Assembly (NCBI GenBank): GCA_003149565.1
Contig: QCWH01000031.1
Coordinates: 1 to 39,616, forward strand
Direction of reading: 5' to 3'
DNA: 39,616 nt
Source of the DNA: Marivita sp. XM-24bin2
Lineage (GTDB): Bacteria; Pseudomonadota; Alphaproteobacteria; Rhodobacterales; Rhodobacteraceae
This document shows, piece by piece, positions 1-8,155 of the stretch. The first letter of the stretch is position 1. Each line of letters begins with the position of its first letter. The notes beneath the pieces were generated by a model. It had not been told where the DNA came from, did not search any database, and saw only the letters and a list, made by a program, of their open reading frames with translations. Made by a program: the position numbers and the translations under genes.

Positions 1-1353
1 GCTAGCCTTGGTGGTCGCGCGCACCGCGCCGAGATCGGTCGCACCGCCTGCGATGGCGTCCACGATAGTGCCTTTGCAAATGCCGTTGCAGCCGCAAATC
101 TCCGCATCACGCGGCAATGCTGCAACGGCTGAGAGAGGGTCCACAGCGGTCCCCCCTTGGTAGGCAGGGCCAAAGATCAGCGTTTCCCGCATTTCTTCGA
201 TGCTTTCGCCTGATTTGATCAGGTCAAAGAACCAGTTTCCATCTGCTGTATCGCCGTACATGACGCAACCGACGAGCCTGTCGCCTTCGATCACGAGGCG
301 CTTGTAGACACCCCGGCTTGGGTCGCGGAACACGATGTCTTCGCGGCCGTCGCCTTCGGCAAAATCGCCCGCGCTGAAAAGGTCACAACCCGTGACCTTG
401 AGCTTGGTCGAGAGCGATTTCTGCTTGAAGGCTGCTTGCTTGCCCAAAAGCGTCTGCGCCAGAACCTTTGCCTGATCGTATAGCGGCGCGACGAGGCCGA
501 AGAGCGCTCCATCATGTTCGACGCATTCCCCGACGGCATAGACGTTTTCATCCGAGGTGAGCATCTGATCGTCCACATGGATGCCGCGTCCGACAGCGAG
601 ACCTGCCTCTTTGGCCAAGGCAACGCAGGGTCGGATACCCACGGCCATGACCAGCAGATCGCAGGGCAGCTCCATGCCATCGTCGAGCAACAGCGCTTTG
701 ACCTTGCCGTTTTCGCCCAGGATTTCTTTCGAATTTGCCGTCAGGCGGATCGCGATGCCTTTGCTTTCGAGCGATTTCTTCAGCAGGTATCCCGCCGCTT
801 CGTCCAGTTGGCGTTCCATCAGGTGGCCCATAATATGAACCACCGTGACATCAACGCCGCGCGCGGCCATGCCTGCAGCTGCCTCCAAGCCCAACAAGCC
901 ACCACCGATGACAACACATTTGTTATCGGGACCGAGAGCCATCATTCGTTTGGTGTCTTCAAGATCGCGATAGGCAATCACACCGTTGAGATCATGGCCG
1001 GGTAGGGGGATCATGAAGGGATCGGACCCAGTGCCGAGGATAAGCTTGTCGTATGCGACAGGACCCTTTTCCCCCTCGACCACTTTCAAGTCGCGGTCGA
1101 TCTTCAGGACGCGTTCGCCAAAGCGGCACGTTACGTTGTGATCCGCATAAAAGGCGTCGTCATGGGTGATGATATCGTCATACGTCTTTTCGCCCGAAAG
1201 CACTGGAGACAGCATGATCCGATTGTAATTGCCGCGAGGCTCGGCGTTGAAAAGGGTGATGTCGTAGGCATCGGGGGCCGTTTCGACCAGATGTTCAATC
1301 ACCCGACCAGAGGCCATGCCCGCGCCAATGATTACTAATTTCTGTCTGCTCAT
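1..1353 (-). CDS. nirB: assimilatory NAD(P)H nitrite reductase large subunit (3' part outside window)
   Basis: This gene reduces nitrite to ammonium with NAD(P)H in the cytoplasm; 451 codons are visible and the reading frame is open to the window edge. The N-terminus has the FAD-binding fold (VIIGAGMASGRVIEHL, residues 8-23) and a second Rossmann glycine motif for NAD(P)H (VVIGGGLLGLEAA). Near the edge comes the BFD-like [2Fe-2S] segment with Cys420, Cys422 and Cys426 (ICGCNGICKG). The siroheme/[4Fe-4S] half expected of NirB should lie beyond position 1. The ATG at 1353 follows the stop of the transporter ATPase gene by 5 bases, so it is the fourth gene of the nrt operon. Co-transcription with a nitrate importer and the NasTS pair indicates an assimilatory role; in Paracoccus the homologue is called nasB. 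The family call is firm; the electron donor (NADH or NADPH) is not decided here. Confidence 0.93.
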   Translation of the reverse strand, partial: MSRQKLVIIGAGMASGRVIEHLVETAPDAYDITLFNAEPRGNYNRIMLSPVLSGEKTYDDIITHDDAFYADHNVTCRFGERVLKIDRDLKVVEGEKGPVAYDKLILGTGSDPFMIPLPGHDLNGVIAYRDLEDTKRMMALGPDNKCVVIGGGLLGLEAAAGMAARGVDVTVVHIMGHLMERQLDEAAGYLLKKSLESKGIAIRLTANSKEILGENGKVKALLLDDGMELPCDLLVMAVGIRPCVALAKEAGLAVGRGIHVDDQMLTSDENVYAVGECVEHDGALFGLVAPLYDQAKVLAQTLLGKQAAFKQKSLSTKLKVTGCDLFSAGDFAEGDGREDIVFRDPSRGVYKRLVIEGDRLVGCVMYGDTADGNWFFDLIKSGESIEEMRETLIFGPAYQGGTAVDPLSAVAALPRDAEICGCNGICKGTIVDAIAGGATDLGAVRATTKAS

Positions 1354-1358
1354 TTCTT

Positions 1359-3071
1359 TCACTCCGCTGCCATCGGCGCAGGGGCCGGGGCTTTGGGTTT
1401 GGGTGCTCCACCAGCGGTGGGCGACTTAGGGGCGTTGCCGTGTTCGTATTCCTCGAGGAAATCGAGCACTTCCTGCCGGTAGGCGTAGTAGTCGGCGTGT
1501 TCGAGAAGCGCCTTGCGCGTGCGGGGACGGGGGAGATCGACCTTTGTGATCTTGCCGATCGTCGCCTGCGGGCCGTTGGTCATCATCACGACGCGGTCGG
1601 CCAGCAGGATCGCCTCGTCCACGTCATGCGTGACGCATATCGCGGTGACCTTGGTGCGGGACCAGACCTCCATCAGCACTTCCTGCAATTCCCAGCGGGT
1701 GAGGCTGTCCAGCATGCCGAAAGGCTCGTCGAGAAGCAGCAGTTTGGGCGAGAGAGCGAAAGCGCGTGCGATGCCAACGCGCTGCTTCATGCCGTTGGAA
1801 AGGTCGTTGGCGGATTTGTCCATCGCATCAGACAGACCGACGCGTTCGAGGTAGTATTCGACCACGTCCTGCCGCTCGGCCTGGCTGGCATTCGGATAGA
1901 CCTTGCCGACGCCGATGGCGACGTTCTCTTTTGCGGTCAGCCATGGGAACAGGTTCGGCGACTGGAACACAACGGCGCGTTCTGGATCGGCCCCTTCAAC
2001 ATGGCGACCGTCCAGCTTGATTGCGCCTTTGCTGATCTCGTTCAGACCGGCGGCCATCGTGAGAACGGTGGACTTGCCGCAGCCCGAGTGGCCGATCAGC
2101 GAGATGAATTCGCCCTTGTCGATCTTCAGATCGAAATCCTCGACCACTGTCAGCGGACCTTTCGGCGTCGGATAGACCTTGTGCAACTGGCTGAAGTCGA
2201 GGAAGCGGTTTTCGATCAGCCCTTTCTGAGCGTCCGCAACGGCCGCGGGCACGCCGTGGATTGGCGTCACGTTCGGGAGCAGCTTGGTGCCTTCGACACG
2301 CGCCTCGATGCCGACATCCATGAGGTACTTGGTGACGTCCTTGCGCAAAGCCTTGAACGTCTCGTCGGTGTTCATGGCAATCCGGTCGCGGGGGCGCGGG
2401 ATGGTGACCTTGAATTCCGCGCCCAGCGTCCCGTCCGGGTTCAGCGCGATGATCCGGTCTGCAAGAATGATCGCCTCATCCACATCGTTGGTGATCAGGA
2501 CGCAGGTCTTCTTGTCAGATTCCCAGATATGCTCGATCTCATCGGCGAGGTTTGCGCGGGTCAGAGCATCGAGCGCAGACAGCGGTTCATCAAGAAGCAA
2601 GACCTCGGGGTTCATTGCCAGGGCTCGTGCCACGTTGACCCGCTGGCGCATCCCGCCGGACAGTTCTGCAGGACGACGCGAGGTGGCATGGCTGAGACCC
2701 ACCATTTTGACATAATGGTCAATCTTGTCCTGGCGTTCTGCGGCGGACAGTTTCGGGAAGATCGCGTCAACGGCGAGGCCAACGTTTCCGTTCACCGTCA
2801 ACCACGGCATAAGGGAGTAGCTTTGGAAGATCACGCCACGCTCGGGTCCCGGTTCGGTGACCGGTGCGCCTTTGAACGTGACGCTGCCGGTTGTCGGTGT
2901 GTCGAGACCCGCCATCAGGTTGATCAGCGTCGTCTTGCCGGTGCCCGAGAACCCCAAGAGAACAAGAAACTCACCCTCTTGGACATCAAGATCAATCCCT
3001 TTCAGGACATCCGTCTTGCCAGTGCCGACGCCATAGCTTTTCGAGACATTTTTGAAGGACAGAATGCTCAT
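1359..3071 (-). CDS. nrtCD: nitrate ABC transporter, fused dual ATP-binding protein (NrtC/NrtD type)
   Basis: The 570-residue protein carries two complete ABC ATPase domains in one chain and should energise nitrate import through the NrtB permease. Domain 1 has Walker A at 40-48 (GFSGTGKTT), signature LSGGM at 137-141 and Walker B ending in DEP at 161-163. Domain 2 has Walker A at 327-335 (GHSGCGKST), signature LSNGM at 424-428 and DEP at 448-450. The switch histidine is present in domain 2 (THDVDEA, His482), but the matching position in domain 1 is Asn195 (TNDVDEA), so the two ATP sites are not equivalent. The last about 25 residues are Ala/Pro rich. Cyanobacterial NrtC is instead an ATPase fused to a substrate-binding domain; here two ATPases are fused. 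The start is 6 bases after the nrtB stop. Taurine and other oxyanion importers share the fold, but the neighbours favour nitrate. Confidence 0.9.
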   Translation of the reverse strand: MSILSFKNVSKSYGVGTGKTDVLKGIDLDVQEGEFLVLLGFSGTGKTTLINLMAGLDTPTTGSVTFKGAPVTEPGPERGVIFQSYSLMPWLTVNGNVGLAVDAIFPKLSAAERQDKIDHYVKMVGLSHATSRRPAELSGGMRQRVNVARALAMNPEVLLLDEPLSALDALTRANLADEIEHIWESDKKTCVLITNDVDEAIILADRIIALNPDGTLGAEFKVTIPRPRDRIAMNTDETFKALRKDVTKYLMDVGIEARVEGTKLLPNVTPIHGVPAAVADAQKGLIENRFLDFSQLHKVYPTPKGPLTVVEDFDLKIDKGEFISLIGHSGCGKSTVLTMAAGLNEISKGAIKLDGRHVEGADPERAVVFQSPNLFPWLTAKENVAIGVGKVYPNASQAERQDVVEYYLERVGLSDAMDKSANDLSNGMKQRVGIARAFALSPKLLLLDEPFGMLDSLTRWELQEVLMEVWSRTKVTAICVTHDVDEAILLADRVVMMTNGPQATIGKITKVDLPRPRTRKALLEHADYYAYRQEVLDFLEEYEHGNAPKSPTAGGAPKPKAPAPAPMAAE

Positions 3072-3077
3072 CTTCGA

Positions 3078-4154
3078 TCACCGATTGTTCGAGAAAGTGA
3101 AGAGCGATTGCAGGGCGTACATCACGCGATCCAGCAAAAAGCCGATGATGCCGATGGTCAGAACCGCAACCATGATCCGGGCGAGGCTGGACGAGGAGCC
3201 GTTCTGGAATTCGTCCCAGACGAACTTGCCGAGGCCCGGGTTCTGCGCCAGCATTTCTGCCGCGATGAGCACCATCCAACCCACACCGAGCGACAACCGC
3301 AGACCGGTGAAGATGAGAGGCAACGCCGAAGGCAAGACCAGCTTGGTAATTTTGGTCCAGGTGTTCATCTTGAGCACTTTGGAGACGTTGATCAGATCTT
3401 TGTCGATCGACGCCACACCCAGCGCCGTGTTGATCAGAGTGGGCCAGAGCGAACAGAGCGTCACCGTCACGGCTGAGATGACAAAGCTCTTTGGCAGCAA
3501 TTCGTTGTCTGCCGCTGCAAGCGCGGAAACAACCATCGTCACGATGGGCAACCACGCCAGAGGAGAGACCGGTTTGAAGATCTGAATCAGCGGATTCAGC
3601 GCCGCATTGGCGGTGGGGGAAAGTCCCGCTGCAATGCCTAGCGGGACGGCAACCACTGTGGCGATAAGGAAGCCGAAGAACACGGTCTGGATAGAGGTCC
3701 AGATCTGCTGATAATAGGTCGGAGCACCTGTATAGGCGCGTTCGCGTGGTTCTTGCCCGTTGGCGATCCGGCGTTCGTTCAACTCCGCGACCTTGGCGTC
3801 GAATTCGGCCTTCTTGGTCGCTTTGTCCAGCGCGTCTTCGTGAAGATTGACCGCCTCGGACCAGACTTGAGCAGGGCCGGGGACCGCGCCAAGTGACGTT
3901 TGAACTTTGGGGGCCAGCGTGGCCCAAAGCATCAGGAAGGCACAGATTGCGAGGATGGGGACAACGAGCAGGCGCCAGATCTCTTTGAACTGGACGGCTG
4001 GATTGTCGCCTGCAGCGGCCTTGAGTACGGGCGTCAGCCAACTTAGACCCAGTACCTGGAACCATTTGTCGGCAGCGTTGATGCGGGTGAACAGACGGGC
4101 GCGCCGGGCTTCACGGTCGGCGGTGTCTGAGAAATTCGGATCGACGGTTGTCAT
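3078..4154 (-). CDS. nrtB: nitrate ABC transporter permease
   Basis: The 358-residue inner-membrane permease forms the channel of the nitrate importer. A cytoplasmic N-terminus of about 60 residues is followed by a first membrane segment (about 61-80), then a charged, probably helical loop of about 60 residues (NLHEDALDKATKKAEFDAKV and on). Five further hydrophobic segments make up the BPD_transp_1 core. The ATPase-docking loop is visible as EMLAQNPGLGKFV. Residues 1-60 plus the long first periplasmic loop make it longer than a minimal NrtB/SsuC permease. The ATG at 4154 has AAAGGA upstream. It lies 99 bases after nrtA, with a small GC hairpin between them, and 6 bases before the ATPase gene. 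The transporter class is secure; nitrate specificity is inferred from nrtA, nasTS and nirB beside it. Confidence 0.92.
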   Translation of the reverse strand: MTTVDPNFSDTADREARRARLFTRINAADKWFQVLGLSWLTPVLKAAAGDNPAVQFKEIWRLLVVPILAICAFLMLWATLAPKVQTSLGAVPGPAQVWSEAVNLHEDALDKATKKAEFDAKVAELNERRIANGQEPRERAYTGAPTYYQQIWTSIQTVFFGFLIATVVAVPLGIAAGLSPTANAALNPLIQIFKPVSPLAWLPIVTMVVSALAAADNELLPKSFVISAVTVTLCSLWPTLINTALGVASIDKDLINVSKVLKMNTWTKITKLVLPSALPLIFTGLRLSLGVGWMVLIAAEMLAQNPGLGKFVWDEFQNGSSSSLARIMVAVLTIGIIGFLLDRVMYALQSLFTFSNNR

Positions 4155-4253: not shown

Positions 4254-5621
4254 TTAGCCTTGGATTTCGTTTCCAACGACGACCTGCTCGCCTTTCAGAC
4301 CAATCGGCAGGCTTTCGAGGTATGCGTTCGGGAAACGGCCGTCGTAAGGGATACCGTCGATGATGTCCTCAGCCGGGGTAGCGGCTTTGTAACCATCGCT
4401 GTCCCAGGGGAAATCAGCGGCGTCGGCAAGACCTTCATCCACCAAAGCGCGGGCGGCTTCGAGATAGATTTCCGGCTTGTAGACTGACTTCGCGACCTCA
4501 TCGTACCAGCTGTCCGGCTTCGGCTCGGCAATCTGGCCCCAGCGGCGCATTTGGGTCAGATACCAGACCGCATCCGAATAGTAGGGGTATGTCGCGTTGT
4601 GGCGGAAGAAGACGTTAAAGTCGGGAATGTCGCGTTTGTCGCCTTTTTCGAATTCGAAGAACCCGGTCATCGAGTTGGCGATCACGTCATAGTCTGCGCC
4701 GACATATTCTGGACGGCTCAGGGTCTCGACCGCTTCAGGGCGGTTGGCATTGTCATTTTCATCCAGCCACATTGCCGCGCGTATAAGTGCTTTGACGACG
4801 GCTTGGGTCGTGTTCGGATTCTCCTCGGCAAATTCAGCCGTGATGCCGAACACCTTTTCCGGGTTGTTCTTCCAGAGCTGATAATCGGTGATCACTGGCA
4901 CGCCGATTCCCTTGAAGACGGCCTGTTGGTTCCAGGGTTCGCCTACGCAATAGCCGTGGATTGTTCCCGCTTCGAGCGTTGCCGGCATTTGTGGTGGTGG
5001 AGTGACGGACAGAAAGACATCGGCGCCGATCTGGCCCGAAATGTTTTCGGGGCTGTAGTACCCCGGCTCCAGGCCACCTGCGGCCAGCCAGTAGCGGAGT
5101 TCGTAATTGTGTGTGGAAACCGGGAAGACCATCCCCATGTTGAAGGGCTCGCCGCGGGCCTGAAAGTCTTCAACCACGGGCTTGAGGGCCGACGCGCTGA
5201 TCGGATGCTGTGGGCGTCCGTCTTCTAACGACGGAATGTGTGGGCGCATCTGCTCCCAGACTTCGTTTGACACGGTGATGCCATTGCCGTTCAGATCCAT
5301 CGAGAACGGCGTGACGATGTGCGCCTCGGTGCCGTAACCAATTGTTGCCGCCAACGGCTGACCAGCCAGCATATGCGCGCCATCTAGCTGCCCGCCGATG
5401 ACACCGTCCAGAAGCACTTTCCAGTTTGCCTGCGCTTCGAGCGTGACGAAGAGGCCTTCGTCCAGGAAATAGCCTTGCTCGTAGGCCACCGCCAAGGGGG
5501 CCATGTCGGTCAGCTTGATAAAGCCAAATGTCAGTTCGTCTTTTTCCAGTTCAAGCATTTCGGCAAAAGCCGGGCTGACCAGGGCGGTCGACGCGGCGAG
5601 GCTCAGGAGGAGGTTTTTCAT
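4254..5621 (-). CDS. nrtA: nitrate ABC transporter periplasmic substrate-binding protein
   Basis: The 455-residue protein begins with a clear Sec signal peptide ([20 protein letters not shown], cleavage after residue 20) and then the NrtA/SsuA-like binding fold ([40 protein letters not shown]). It should capture nitrate, and perhaps nitrite, in the periplasm for NrtB. The frame is open 60 codons further upstream, but the ATG at 5621 is chosen because the signal peptide starts there, AAAGGA precedes it, and the upstream stretch contains the leader terminator. It is the first gene after the NasT-type leader and should be the most strongly expressed. It resembles nasS next door, which lacks a signal peptide; the pair shows the familiar split of one fold into transporter and sensor versions. 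Confidence 0.94.
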
Positions 5622-5670
5622 TGCTTTTCCTTTCGGTGCGCCTGCGAGGGAGGACCGCAGGGCAAAACGC

Positions 5671-5721
5671 AAAAAAGGCCGTTCACTGCCCGTCGGATTA
5701 ACCGACGGAGAGCGAGCGACC
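5671..5721 (-). terminator. intrinsic terminator in the nrtA leader (attenuator)
   Basis: On the minus strand the 5' arm GGTCGCTCGCT (5721-5711) pairs with AGTGAACGGCC (5687-5677), with one C/A mismatch and G-U pairs. Inside it a perfect 7-bp stem CCGTCGG/CCGACGG (5708-5702 / 5696-5690) closes a TTAAT loop. Six T residues (5676-5671) follow directly. It sits 50 bases before the nrtA ATG, so unrelieved it should stop transcription before the operon. Its 5' arm is shared with the ANTAR-type hairpin at 5714-5727, making the two structures mutually exclusive. Confidence 0.85.
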
Positions 5722-5748
5722 TTGCTCAAAATTTCCCTGTCATTGGGA
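5714..5748 (-). promoter_or_regulatory. candidate NasT (ANTAR) antiterminator RNA: two stem-loops
   Basis: ANTAR proteins bind tandem hairpins whose hexaloops have A at position 1 and G at position 4. The second hairpin fits exactly: GAGC (5727-5724), loop AAGGTC (5723-5718), GCTC (5717-5714). Upstream, TCCC (5748-5745) pairs with GGGA (5737-5734) around AATGACA, which also has A1 and G4 but counts 7 bases unless a C/A pair closes it. The 3' arm of hairpin 2 is part of the terminator's 5' arm, the arrangement expected for antitermination. The nasT gene ends about 1.3 kb upstream. Direct binding is inferred. Confidence 0.78.
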
Positions 5749-5879
5749 GGAATTCGTTTCGGTCCGCCCCGTTGCAGACCGATGAGATGATCATGCCGCA
5801 ATGCAGCGAACGGGCAAAGAATTTTTGTGAAAACCTGAATGTGGTCAGTCTAGCGTGACAAATTTTGCCTAAAAAAAGG

Positions 5880-7043
5880 TCAGTCTTTCAGGGAAGGATC
5901 AAAAATACGTCCGTCGAAAAACGTGTCCCGCAAAAGTGTGAGGCGACCGCGTGCCGACGCAACCGGGGTTTCCAATCGAATCGATCCCTCGACCTTTTCC
6001 GATGCGCCCGGGAAATCGCTGCCTGTCGGTGTGATGTGTCTGCGATGCAGATCGGCGCGAAAGACATGCGCCACGGAGCTGTGATCTACATCATGGGATT
6101 TCCCCAATCTGTGCGCGATCCATTTCGCCTGACTGCGCCAAGGGAACGTCGCGGCTCCGGCGTGAAATTCTACAAAATGGTCAACGTGGCGCTGATCTCC
6201 GCGGGCTGAGACAGTCATATTGCCGGATAGAGACCGGTCAATGAGCTCGGGCGATACATCGAGATAGTCTTGCCGTGAGAGAAGTTCCGCCGCGGTGGTG
6301 CGGCTTTCGTCGCGGCTCAGCCATCGGCCTGCATGCCAGACTGCGCGCATGAGACGTCCCAAGAGGTTTGGTTCCGTTTCCGCCCATTCCGTCCGCACAG
6401 CCAGAACCTTTTCCGGGGCAAATTGCCAAATCGCCTTGCCCGGCAACAGCAAGGCGCCTGCACCCTGATCCACCGCGACCGAGCCCCACGGTTCACCAAC
6501 GCAAAAGGCATCGACGTCACCGGCAGCCAGCGCGTCAGCCATCAACGGGGGCGGCACTGTCTTAATTTCGATCCCATCTGCGCCGAGTGCCGTATGAGCG
6601 CACCAATAGCGCAGCAGTTCCACATGCATCGAGAACGGAAACGGCACGCCGAATGTCACAGGCTTCGACCGGACTTTCGCCAGAGCATCGGCCGCGGCGA
6701 CGGCGTCTGCGAAGTCAAAGCCAAACCCGACATCCCGCAGCGCCTCTTCTATGTCGCGCGAGACACCAATGACGTTGCCGTTTACCGACAGGACCGAAAC
6801 CGCAGAGAGCGGGGTCGTGACACCCCCCAATCCCATCGCCATGGCGACCGGTATGGGAGACAGCATATGTGCCGCATCCACCCGGCCAAAAGCGAGCATA
6901 TCGCGTACCGAGGACCAGGATGGTGCTGCGATGAGATCGAGCGAAATCCCTTCGGTTTCGGCAAAGCCCATCTCATGTGCAACAATCAGCGGCGCTGCAT
7001 CGACGAGCGGGACATAGGCTATGGGGAGGGTGACCGTCTTCAT
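5880..7043 (-). CDS. nasS: nitrate/nitrite sensor NasS (NrtA-like, no signal peptide)
   Basis: The 387-residue protein has the NrtA-type binding fold (VTLPIAYVPLVDAAPLIVAHE, VRDMLAFGRVDAAHMLSPIP, VGEPWGSVAV) but begins directly at the first beta strand with no signal peptide, so it should be cytoplasmic. In characterised NasST systems NasS holds NasT in an inactive complex and releases it when nitrate or nitrite binds. The start codon overlaps the nasT stop by 4 bases (ATGA), giving fixed coupling of sensor and regulator. The gene ends 258 bases before nrtA, just upstream of the leader. It is shorter than nrtA (387 against about 435 mature residues). Confusion with a taurine- or sulfonate-binding protein is unlikely given nasT. 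Confidence 0.93.
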   Translation of the reverse strand: MKTVTLPIAYVPLVDAAPLIVAHEMGFAETEGISLDLIAAPSWSSVRDMLAFGRVDAAHMLSPIPVAMAMGLGGVTTPLSAVSVLSVNGNVIGVSRDIEEALRDVGFGFDFADAVAAADALAKVRSKPVTFGVPFPFSMHVELLRYWCAHTALGADGIEIKTVPPPLMADALAAGDVDAFCVGEPWGSVAVDQGAGALLLPGKAIWQFAPEKVLAVRTEWAETEPNLLGRLMRAVWHAGRWLSRDESRTTAAELLSRQDYLDVSPELIDRSLSGNMTVSARGDQRHVDHFVEFHAGAATFPWRSQAKWIAHRLGKSHDVDHSSVAHVFRADLHRRHITPTGSDFPGASEKVEGSIRLETPVASARGRLTLLRDTFFDGRIFDPSLKD

Positions 7044-7624
7044 CCCAGAAGTCCCGACGCCGTGACAAGCGCTTCGGCCACATCTGCCACCCGTCGTCCC
7101 TGATCCATCGCGGTCTTGCGCAGCAGGGCATAGGCCGCGTCTTCGTCAATGCCCTTGGCTTTCATGACGAGACCCTTGGCACGATCGATCACTTTGCGCT
7201 CTTCCAGCGCCCGCCGGGTCTCGGCCAATTCGTTGCGCATCTGGCGCACCATTCTAAAGCGCGCGATGGCCGTATCCATGACAGGTTTGATGCGTTCTGC
7301 CGACAAACCGTCAACCACATAGGCAGAGACCCCAGCTTCAATGGCAGTTTGGGCCAAACCACCGGCAGCGCCGGAAACGAACATGGCCACCGGACGCTCC
7401 AAAGGACCGGATGCCAAGGTCAGTTCCTCAAGCATGTCGCGTGTCGGGTGGTCTATATCGATCAGGACAATGTCAGGAGCATGCTCTGCGATCTTGCGGG
7501 CCAGACCGCTGGTGTTGCCGATCACATGCACATTGCAATCCGCTCCGTCTTTCAACGCGTCAACAATCGCGATGGCCCGATCGCGATCCTCTTCCACAAC
7601 GACAACAGTGAGTTGGTTAGCCAT
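7040..7624 (-). CDS. nasT: NasT, ANTAR-domain transcription antiterminator
   Basis: The 194-residue protein has an N-terminal receiver-like domain (MANQLTVVVVEEDRDRAIAI; DIVLIDIDHPTRD) and a C-terminal ANTAR RNA-binding domain of about 60 residues (ERKVIDRAKGLVMKAKGIDE followed by AYALLRKTAMDQGRRVADVAEAL). In the family it binds paired hexaloop hairpins in nas leaders and prevents termination, with NasS as nitrate-responsive partner rather than phosphorylation. The frame is open 27 codons further upstream; the ATG at 7624 is chosen because the receiver beta strand starts there. Its likely target is the nrtA leader at 5671-5748. Transcription probably starts within 7625-7760; I found no convincing promoter. 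Confidence 0.94.
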   Translation of the reverse strand: MANQLTVVVVEEDRDRAIAIVDALKDGADCNVHVIGNTSGLARKIAEHAPDIVLIDIDHPTRDMLEELTLASGPLERPVAMFVSGAAGGLAQTAIEAGVSAYVVDGLSAERIKPVMDTAIARFRMVRQMRNELAETRRALEERKVIDRAKGLVMKAKGIDEDAAYALLRKTAMDQGRRVADVAEALVTASGLLG

Positions 7625-8155
7625 GGGTTCCGTTTGTATCGCAGGTAAACGGATCACAACCTGTAAGATGGTCTGACCGCTGCAATGCCGCGTTTGGCAG
7701 GCCAAGGCTGGGGTGCTGTGCTCAAATCTTAGGCATCAAGTCAGGGAGGCTGTGATTTTTGCTCCGCGTCCAGTCACGGGGGCGTATGCCTGTGGTGCCC
7801 AAGACACTGGAGGGCTTTCGCAGGTGAGCCTTTCTCCGAGCGCGATTTTGCGCCAACTCCCAAGACCCACAGCCAGGCCAATGTCGGCGTCTGCGTTGCG
7901 CGGGGCCAGGCGCTGGGCGGTCAGGTCCGTTCCGGCCAAGAGAAATGAAGAGGTACTGCGGTTGTATCACCCCCGCGCGCGTCGGCATGTTGACAGCATG
8001 CGTCCGGCATGACGCGCGGCGTGCGGTTTGGTTTGGGGGGTGGTGCGTGCGAGCATGCACCCTACAGCACGGCCCTCTGCAATTGACCCGACCCAAGACC
8101 TCTGCCACACAAGAGACTGCGTGACAGCCAAGGGGCCCGACTGCGGGCGCGGGAT
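7625..8155. other. 531-base intergenic region without a recognisable gene
   Basis: The region separates divergently read nasT and trkA and must hold both promoters. Open frames on either strand (for example 7713-8012 plus and 7722-8108 minus) give Arg/Pro-rich translations matching no family I know, so I leave them out. Visible structure: GCATG-N7-CATGC near 7984-8000, and inverted GCGCGCGTC (7976-7984) / GACGCGCGG (8011-8019) around it. No clear sigma-70 or sigma-54 element was found. It is long for this otherwise compact window. Confidence 0.6.

Follow-up and report, generated by a model that had tools for sequence, protein, structure and literature searches.

In Paracoccus denitrificans, the nasABGHC genes stand behind a NasS-NasT regulator in the order nasT, nasS, leader and structural genes (PMC3795266, PMC5424462). 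The NasS-NasT complex comes apart on nitrate, either nitrate or nitrite frees NasT from NasS, and the nasA leader is bound by NasT, whose free form broadly fits a hexamer (PMC3795266). The sections of these reports on which we draw name two hairpins. HI lies 137 bp before nasA; full expression depends on it, and its mutation leads to severe deficiency. HII, at 91, can be mutated with little effect in the presence of nitrate (PMC5424462). In Klebsiella oxytoca, an ANTAR protein, NasR, also acts on a nitrate-assimilation operon, nasF, in response to nitrate; as described in the material consulted, it is a one-protein sensor that uses two hairpins.

The spacing of such hairpins has been studied in EutV of Enterococcus faecalis, whose leaders carry A1/G4 loops with the last hairpin overlapping a terminator (PMC3369931, PMC8934654). 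In the portions of these papers considered here, the two hairpins of a eut leader are separated by linkers of 5-12 nt, linkers of 3 or 14 nt cut induction drastically, and 20 added linker nucleotides abolished antitermination by EutV. G4 is described as the only base-specific contact in the EutV complex, and the ANTAR dimer binds a single hexaloop at once yet requires two nearby (PMC8934654). A survey of actinobacteria admits linkers of 2-25 nt (PMC8164766), so the rule of 5-12 nt may be narrower than nature.

In this study, we examine the leader of nrtA in Marivita sp. XM-24bin2, using a stretch of 39,616 nucleotides (the window) together with related leaders. The comparison suggests that this leader is probably a transcription antitermination switch under NasT control that has three stem-loops in tandem in place of two. 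The mechanism is already known from NasS-NasT antitermination in P. denitrificans, of which the three-hairpin layout is a variant. The locus shares the gene order of the P. denitrificans system and differs from it, as far as the cited accounts go, in having three hairpins, nrtA as the target and a middle loop of 7 nt. As in the EutV leaders, the loops have A1 and G4 and the last hairpin overlaps the terminator; unlike the two-hairpin leaders in those accounts, there are three hairpins, and the true hexaloops lie 31 nt apart. A three-hairpin NasT leader was not found described in the literature searched (titles and abstracts), nor was a bound 7-nt loop in the compared parts of the ANTAR papers.

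Results

Gene content of the nrtA locus

On the minus strand, nasT and nasS are followed by a gap of 258 nt, nrtA, nrtB, a gene for a fused NrtC/NrtD-type ATPase and a nirB-like frame:

7040..7624, minus strand: nasT, ANTAR regulator, predicted to bind RNA (PF03861, 1.8e-21, 76.1 bits)
5880..7043, minus strand: nasS, predicted nitrate/nitrite-binding partner (NMT1_2, PF13379, 1.1e-65)
4254..5621, minus strand: nrtA, substrate-binding protein, first gene past the switch, ATG at 5621 (PF13379, 2.3e-93)
3078..4154, minus strand: nrtB, permease (TIGR01183, 7.1e-46, under its cut-off; PF00528)
1359..3071, minus strand: fused NrtC/NrtD-type ATPase with two ABC domains (TIGR01184, two stretches, 589 bits)
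1..1362, minus strand: nirB-like frame, nitrite reductase large subunit, truncated by the window edge (TIGR02374, 455 bits, profile positions 1-451 of 794)

The nirB-like frame scores under the whole-protein cut-off of TIGR02374, as a fragment would. The likely start of nasT is the ATG at 7624, within an open frame that begins with TTG at 7705. An ANTAR gene and an NMT1_2 gene encoded together beside nitrate-assimilation genes define a NasS-NasT regulator, and this arrangement is the one found here; nasT is also the only ANTAR match found when the genome was searched. Sequence relatives of NasT with known structures are Rv1626 (1s8n), EutV (6wsh/6ww6) and NasR (4akk). Manual mapping of the seven RNA-contact residues of EutV onto NasT gave four identical residues, one R for K and two that differ.

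The order nasT-nasS-nrtA recurs in 78 of 80 loci from named records (the best 80 of 587). The exceptions are L086 and L055. In L086, nasT precedes the leader with no nasS match between, which may reflect natural loss of nasS or a misassembled metagenome bin. In L055, nasT-nasS is oriented opposite to nrtA, and the leader retains P2 and a middle hairpin, along with a P0 of two pairs as judged by eye (hairpin names are given below).

Three stem-loops precede and overlap a terminator

The elements read in the leader, in transcription order, are as follows:

5790..5817, minus strand: candidate promoter read by eye (TTGCCC, 16 nt, CATGAT), weak, 8/12 consensus matches
5759..5782, minus strand: P0, stem-loop TCGGTCTGC-AACGGG-GCGGACCGA, 9 pairs, hexaloop at 5773-5768 with A1 and G4 (-13.2 kcal/mol for the inner 8 pairs)
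5734..5748, minus strand: M, the middle stem-loop, TCCC-AATGACA-GGGA, 7-nt loop with A1 and G4 (-4.0 kcal/mol)
5714..5727, minus strand: P2, antiterminator stem-loop GAGC-AAGGTC-GCTC, hexaloop with A1 and G4 (-4.0 kcal/mol)
5671..5723, minus strand: intrinsic terminator AAGGTCGCTC...ACGGCCTT, its 5' arm starting from the P2 loop and its 3' arm running into T6 (-30.9 kcal/mol for 5723-5675)

The T run of the terminator lies at 5676-5671 and ends about 50 nt before the nrtA ATG. The loop and 3' arm of P2 (5723-5714) are also the 5' arm of the terminator, and the leader thus has the overlap of second hairpin and intrinsic terminator that marks ANTAR dual-hairpin leaders (PMC3369931). A simple terminator scan of the window did not list the nrtA-leader terminator, probably because of its stem mismatches.

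An earlier note on this sequence had described a strong terminator some 50 bases before nrtA, a hairpin with A1 and G4 overlapping its 5' arm, a further A1/G4 stem-loop just upstream and adjacent nasT and nasS genes; each of these is borne out. Its interpretation, a complete NasT-type antitermination switch, is well supported as to type by the neighbouring ANTAR gene, the mutual exclusivity of P2 and terminator, and conservation. It does not stand as to completeness: P0, ten nucleotides upstream of M and just outside the range that the note covered, is a stronger, covarying hairpin with a canonical A1/G4 hexaloop and had been overlooked.

Growing prefixes in transcription order are predicted to fold P0, then M, then P2, and the lowest-energy fold of the prefix 5784-5714 is exactly P0, M and P2. 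By 5709, a second copy of GCTC (5713-5710) is predicted to pair with GAGC, displacing the P2 hexaloop, and by 5675 the terminator is the winning fold. Forcing P2 in the full leader costs 6.6 kcal/mol, so P2 would need protein or kinetics. The region as a whole (5660-5765) folds with z -3.16, and 2/200 shuffles were as good. The loops without the terminator (5706-5765) gave z 0.04, with 96/200 shuffles as good; because they fold no better than shuffles, the case for the loops rests on conservation. In the fold of the full leader, the TTCC before M (5752-5749) pairs with bases beside the nrtA ribosome-binding site.

The candidate promoter would place the RNA start near 5784, at the base of P0; a promoter scan reported no site there, the candidate falling under its threshold. 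Counting from the P0 loop in 99 leaders, T is modestly enriched near -45 and A/T near -21 to -17. A scan of the window for NtrC-type sites gave no evidence for them (67 matches vs 60.4 in shuffles).

Conservation of the hairpins among related leaders

Of 587 titled loci, the best 80 supplied leaders for the comparison, and family genomes supplied another 30, the window's own among them, for 110 in total and 105 distinct; these 105 are mutually related and were counted unweighted. A fixed P2 pattern matched in all 110 nrtA leaders, the window's own included. A1 is present in P2 of 100 of the 105 distinct leaders, G4 having been built into the search pattern, and 102 of the 105 can form at least 5 pairs between the P2 loop and 3' arm and the bases before the T run. 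In two leaders (L070, L080), G replaces A at position 1 of the P2 loop and, by eye, in P0 too; the base that is recognised may have changed in both together.

The search for P0 was confined to 40-64 nt upstream of P2, required A1, G4 and three pairs, and took the longest stem. An A1/G4 hexaloop with at least 3 pairs was found there in 99 of 105 leaders, whereas 100 dinucleotide shuffles averaged 7.4 and reached at most 15; two of the hairpins taken, in L082 and L090, proved spurious once read, leaving 97 of 105. With at least 6 pairs required, the count is 39 of 105 vs 0.3 in shuffles. The loop reads AANG, with A at position 2, in 93 of 99 leaders and is closed by a C-G pair in 97 of 99; since A1, G4 and three pairs were search requirements, these loop figures are no test of those features. 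Pairs 4-9 are formed in 52-72 of the 99 leaders, each above all 300 among-sequence shuffles, as expected of covariation. In an alignment of 76 leaders, the P0 helix exceeded each of 500 shuffles in all five measures, and pairing holds in 89.3% of cells vs 26-46% with the partner slid. Left out of this alignment were ten of the 105 leaders whose P0 was absent or at an unusual distance, and a further 19, for the most part near-duplicates or leaders with no CCC/GGG in the middle hairpin. This choice makes the alignment lean towards the M structure; the count of M itself used all 105.

M was searched for in all 105 leaders as a C-G-closed hairpin between P0 and P2, with a loop of 6-8 nt and loop bases ignored. 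Of the 105 leaders, 103 have such a hairpin, where shuffles average 46.7 and reach at most 62; the count takes in L082 and L090, whose AATGGC hexaloops were read as P0-like. The loop has 7 nt in 58 leaders, 8 in 23 and 6 in 22, and two leaders (L072, L079) have no such hairpin. G occupies loop position 4 in 82 of 103 vs 21% of shuffled hairpins, and A1 and G4 occur together in 50 of 103. In the strict frame CCC-N7-GGG, found in 64 of 105 leaders, G4 is present in 59 of 64, and the other loop positions are G in at most 15. The constant of the conserved 7-base middle loop, as these counts read, is G4. The inner pairs of M are nearly invariant and thus show little covariation. A true A1/G4 hexaloop stands at the middle site in several leaders (for example L014, L023, L027, L070, L102 and L103), and all three loops are A1/G4 hexaloops in Paracoccus versutus (L167) and Rhodobacter CZR27 (L163). 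A comparison of NasT residues at the EutV-contact positions with middle-loop length gave no clear link.

These counts bear on two points raised earlier. The two loops described in the earlier note recur in the relatives, with P2 in 105 of 105 leaders and the middle hairpin in 103. The 7-base loop, which had been taken as a departure from the hexaloop rule, does have 7 nt here, but it is not alone: being widespread among nrtA leaders, it is a family trait rather than an oddity of the Marivita genome. The three-hairpin build appears general in the family sample and common to most relatives examined.

Distribution of the array

At E 0.01, a covariance model of the array matched 36 of 120 family genomes, which all belong to the 42 with NrtA; the remaining 78 gave no match. 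For 26 of the 36, the model contains the genome's own leader or an identical one, so that they match by construction. Outside the model, 10 of 16 NrtA genomes matched independently. The six unmatched NrtA genomes include G105 and G063, whose leaders (L025, L027) are without the array. The search of Rfam 15 that the earlier note had recommended yielded no family at threshold in the leader; five sub-threshold matches appeared at E up to 10, the best being algC at 0.07. The array model is a model for a leader unmatched here by any Rfam 15 family.

Of the 39 family matches, 36 lie before nrtA; the other 3, in G071, G088 and G092, precede a siroheme synthase gene that is unlinked. In these 3 of 120 family genomes, siroheme synthase genes (cysG/cobA-type; L158, L159, L160) carry the same three-hairpin leader with a terminator of their own. 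Siroheme is the cofactor of NirB, so siroheme synthase is a plausible second target.

The class sample gave six array matches in 5 of 289 genomes, with three before nrtA (the window, G141 and G226), one false and two weak (L146, L147). A second match in the Marivita genome (C11, E 0.007) was rejected as lying inside a proline-dehydrogenase-like frame, as was a match in G226 (C18) inside an ankyrin-like frame, both frames being named by eye.

The terminator hairpin contains the anti-Shine-Dalgarno-like motif CTCCTCC in 29 of 105 nrtA leaders (28 by another cut; shuffles: mean 1.6, max 5), the bearers being among L002-L111. The window's copy lies past the terminator, at 5654-5648. Other terminator-like sites of L032-L111 gave CTCCTCC in 0 of 70, and related motifs occur between P2 and the ATG in 57 of 105 leaders vs 10.4. 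The terminated nrtA leader might act as a small RNA. The sequence CUCCUCCC was not found in the literature searched.

Leaders of P. denitrificans and of the wider class

The leader of P. denitrificans HAMBI_2443 contains three G4 hexaloops, at -160 to -145, -134 to -121 and -111 to -98 from the presumed nasA ATG, with hexaloop starts 25 and 23 nt apart. By distance, HI maps to its middle hairpin, the equivalent of M; the strain differs and the start is assumed. The 37-bp replacement of HI probably also reached the third hexaloop. The Marivita leader has a clear T run, and none was found by script in the P. denitrificans leader (L156): positions 5928-6003 show no T run after the last hexaloop, so termination there may not be classical intrinsic.

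In the wider class, two hexaloops 18-25 nt apart, with no third within 70 nt, were found in L123, L124, L139, Ensifer (L164) and Methylocella (L165), and three hexaloops in L113, L114 and Sulfitobacter (L157). Because some NasT-linked leaders of the class show only two close hexaloops, three are not generally needed. A scripted search for P2 plus a terminator after nasS came up empty at 14 of the 29 class loci and at 3 of the 8 plasmid loci, and some of its picks are doubtful. Upstream of the first hexaloop in leaders of other families (L115, L116, L118, L119, L123, L124, L128 and L139), a sequence resembling a sigma-54 promoter (TGGCAC-N5-YTGC) was noticed by eye.

Spacing of the hairpins

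Counted by hand on the predicted structure, the linkers in the window are 31 nt between P0 and P2, 10 nt between P0 and M and 6 nt between M and P2. P0 and P2 have what is asked of an ANTAR dual hairpin (at least 3 bp and six-base loops with A1/G4; PMC3369931), and M, with its 7 bases, does not. Against the 5-12 nt of eut leaders, the true hexaloops are 31 nt apart, and the steps are 10 and 6 nt if M is counted. Among the leaders, the P0-M linker has a median of 12 nt (75 of 97 within 3-14 nt, 52 within 5-12 and 22 outside 3-14), and the M-P2 linker a median of 6 nt (97 of 97 within 3-14, 79 within 5-12). The P0-P2 linker has a median of 34 nt, with 0 of 99 at 14 nt or less, figures that are unable to show short spacing since P0 was sought only 40-64 nt upstream. 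When AANG was counted anywhere 20-75 nt upstream of P2, with no stem needed, occurrences peaked at 47-52 nt (89) and at 20-22 nt (25).

L082, which comes from the same genome as L025, and L090 were read as having lost M. By hand, each has a P0-like AATGGC hexaloop, 11 and 14 nt from P2, respectively (28 and 29 nt loop to loop), and no other middle hairpin is readable there. The 14 nt of L090 is the length that failed for EutV.

Discussion

The reading of the nrtA leader as a three-hairpin NasT switch rests mainly on the recurrence of P2, on that of P0 relative to shuffles, on the loop and covariation of P0 and on the counts of M. The hairpins, their conservation, the overlap of P2 with the terminator and the adjacency of nasT and nasS are visible in the sequences themselves, and a course of events can be proposed from them. 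Without nitrate, NasS would hold NasT, the terminator would form and transcription would halt some 50 nt short of nrtA. Once nitrate is present, NasS would release NasT, and the free protein would meet the emerging leader at P0 first, then M, then P2. NasT on P2 would keep the loop and 3' arm (5723-5714) from the terminator, allowing read-through into nrtA and the genes after it (nrtB, the ATPase gene and nirB). The nitrate response of the Marivita locus is inferred, as are binding of NasT to each of the three hairpins and a bridging role for M, which would link P0 to P2 by short steps.

P0 and P2 might instead be the NasT pair, with M merely a folded spacer that draws them close. The true A1/G4 hexaloops of P0 and P2, the 7-nt M loop of 58 of the 105 leaders and the closed gap in L082 and L090 would all suit such a spacer. 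A pure spacer, however, need not retain G4 as M does (82 of 103 vs 21% in shuffles), and HI, whose mutation is so damaging in P. denitrificans, maps by distance to M; we consider this reading unlikely. It is very unlikely that M and P2 form the dual motif, with the 7-base loop tolerated and P0 serving another role such as protection of the 5' end. The 6-nt M-P2 linker is within the range of EutV leaders, and L027 has a true hexaloop at the M site with no P0 by the search rule, but protection of an end needs no P2-like loop, and P0 keeps AANG in 93 of 99 leaders and its C-G closing pair in 97 of 99. That the terminator is constitutive or under another signal, with loops that only resemble ANTAR targets, is scarcely credible given the conservation of the hairpins across leaders, the array matches in 36 of 42 NrtA genomes vs 0 of 78 (with 26 of these 36 matching by construction) and the NasT system demonstrated in P. 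denitrificans.

The three-hairpin NasT switch thus remains the preferred reading, and it allows a tentative suggestion as to stoichiometry: one ANTAR dimer may sit on each hairpin of a three-site array, three dimers corresponding to the roughly hexameric free NasT described for P. denitrificans in the part of that report used here (PMC3795266). If this is true, the conserved 7-base middle loop would be a relay, and the two-hairpin rule would become one in which each neighbour lies within a short step. With a three-hairpin leader this widespread, and relatives in which M is apparently lost and the gap closed, spacing, hand-over and stoichiometry become directly testable.
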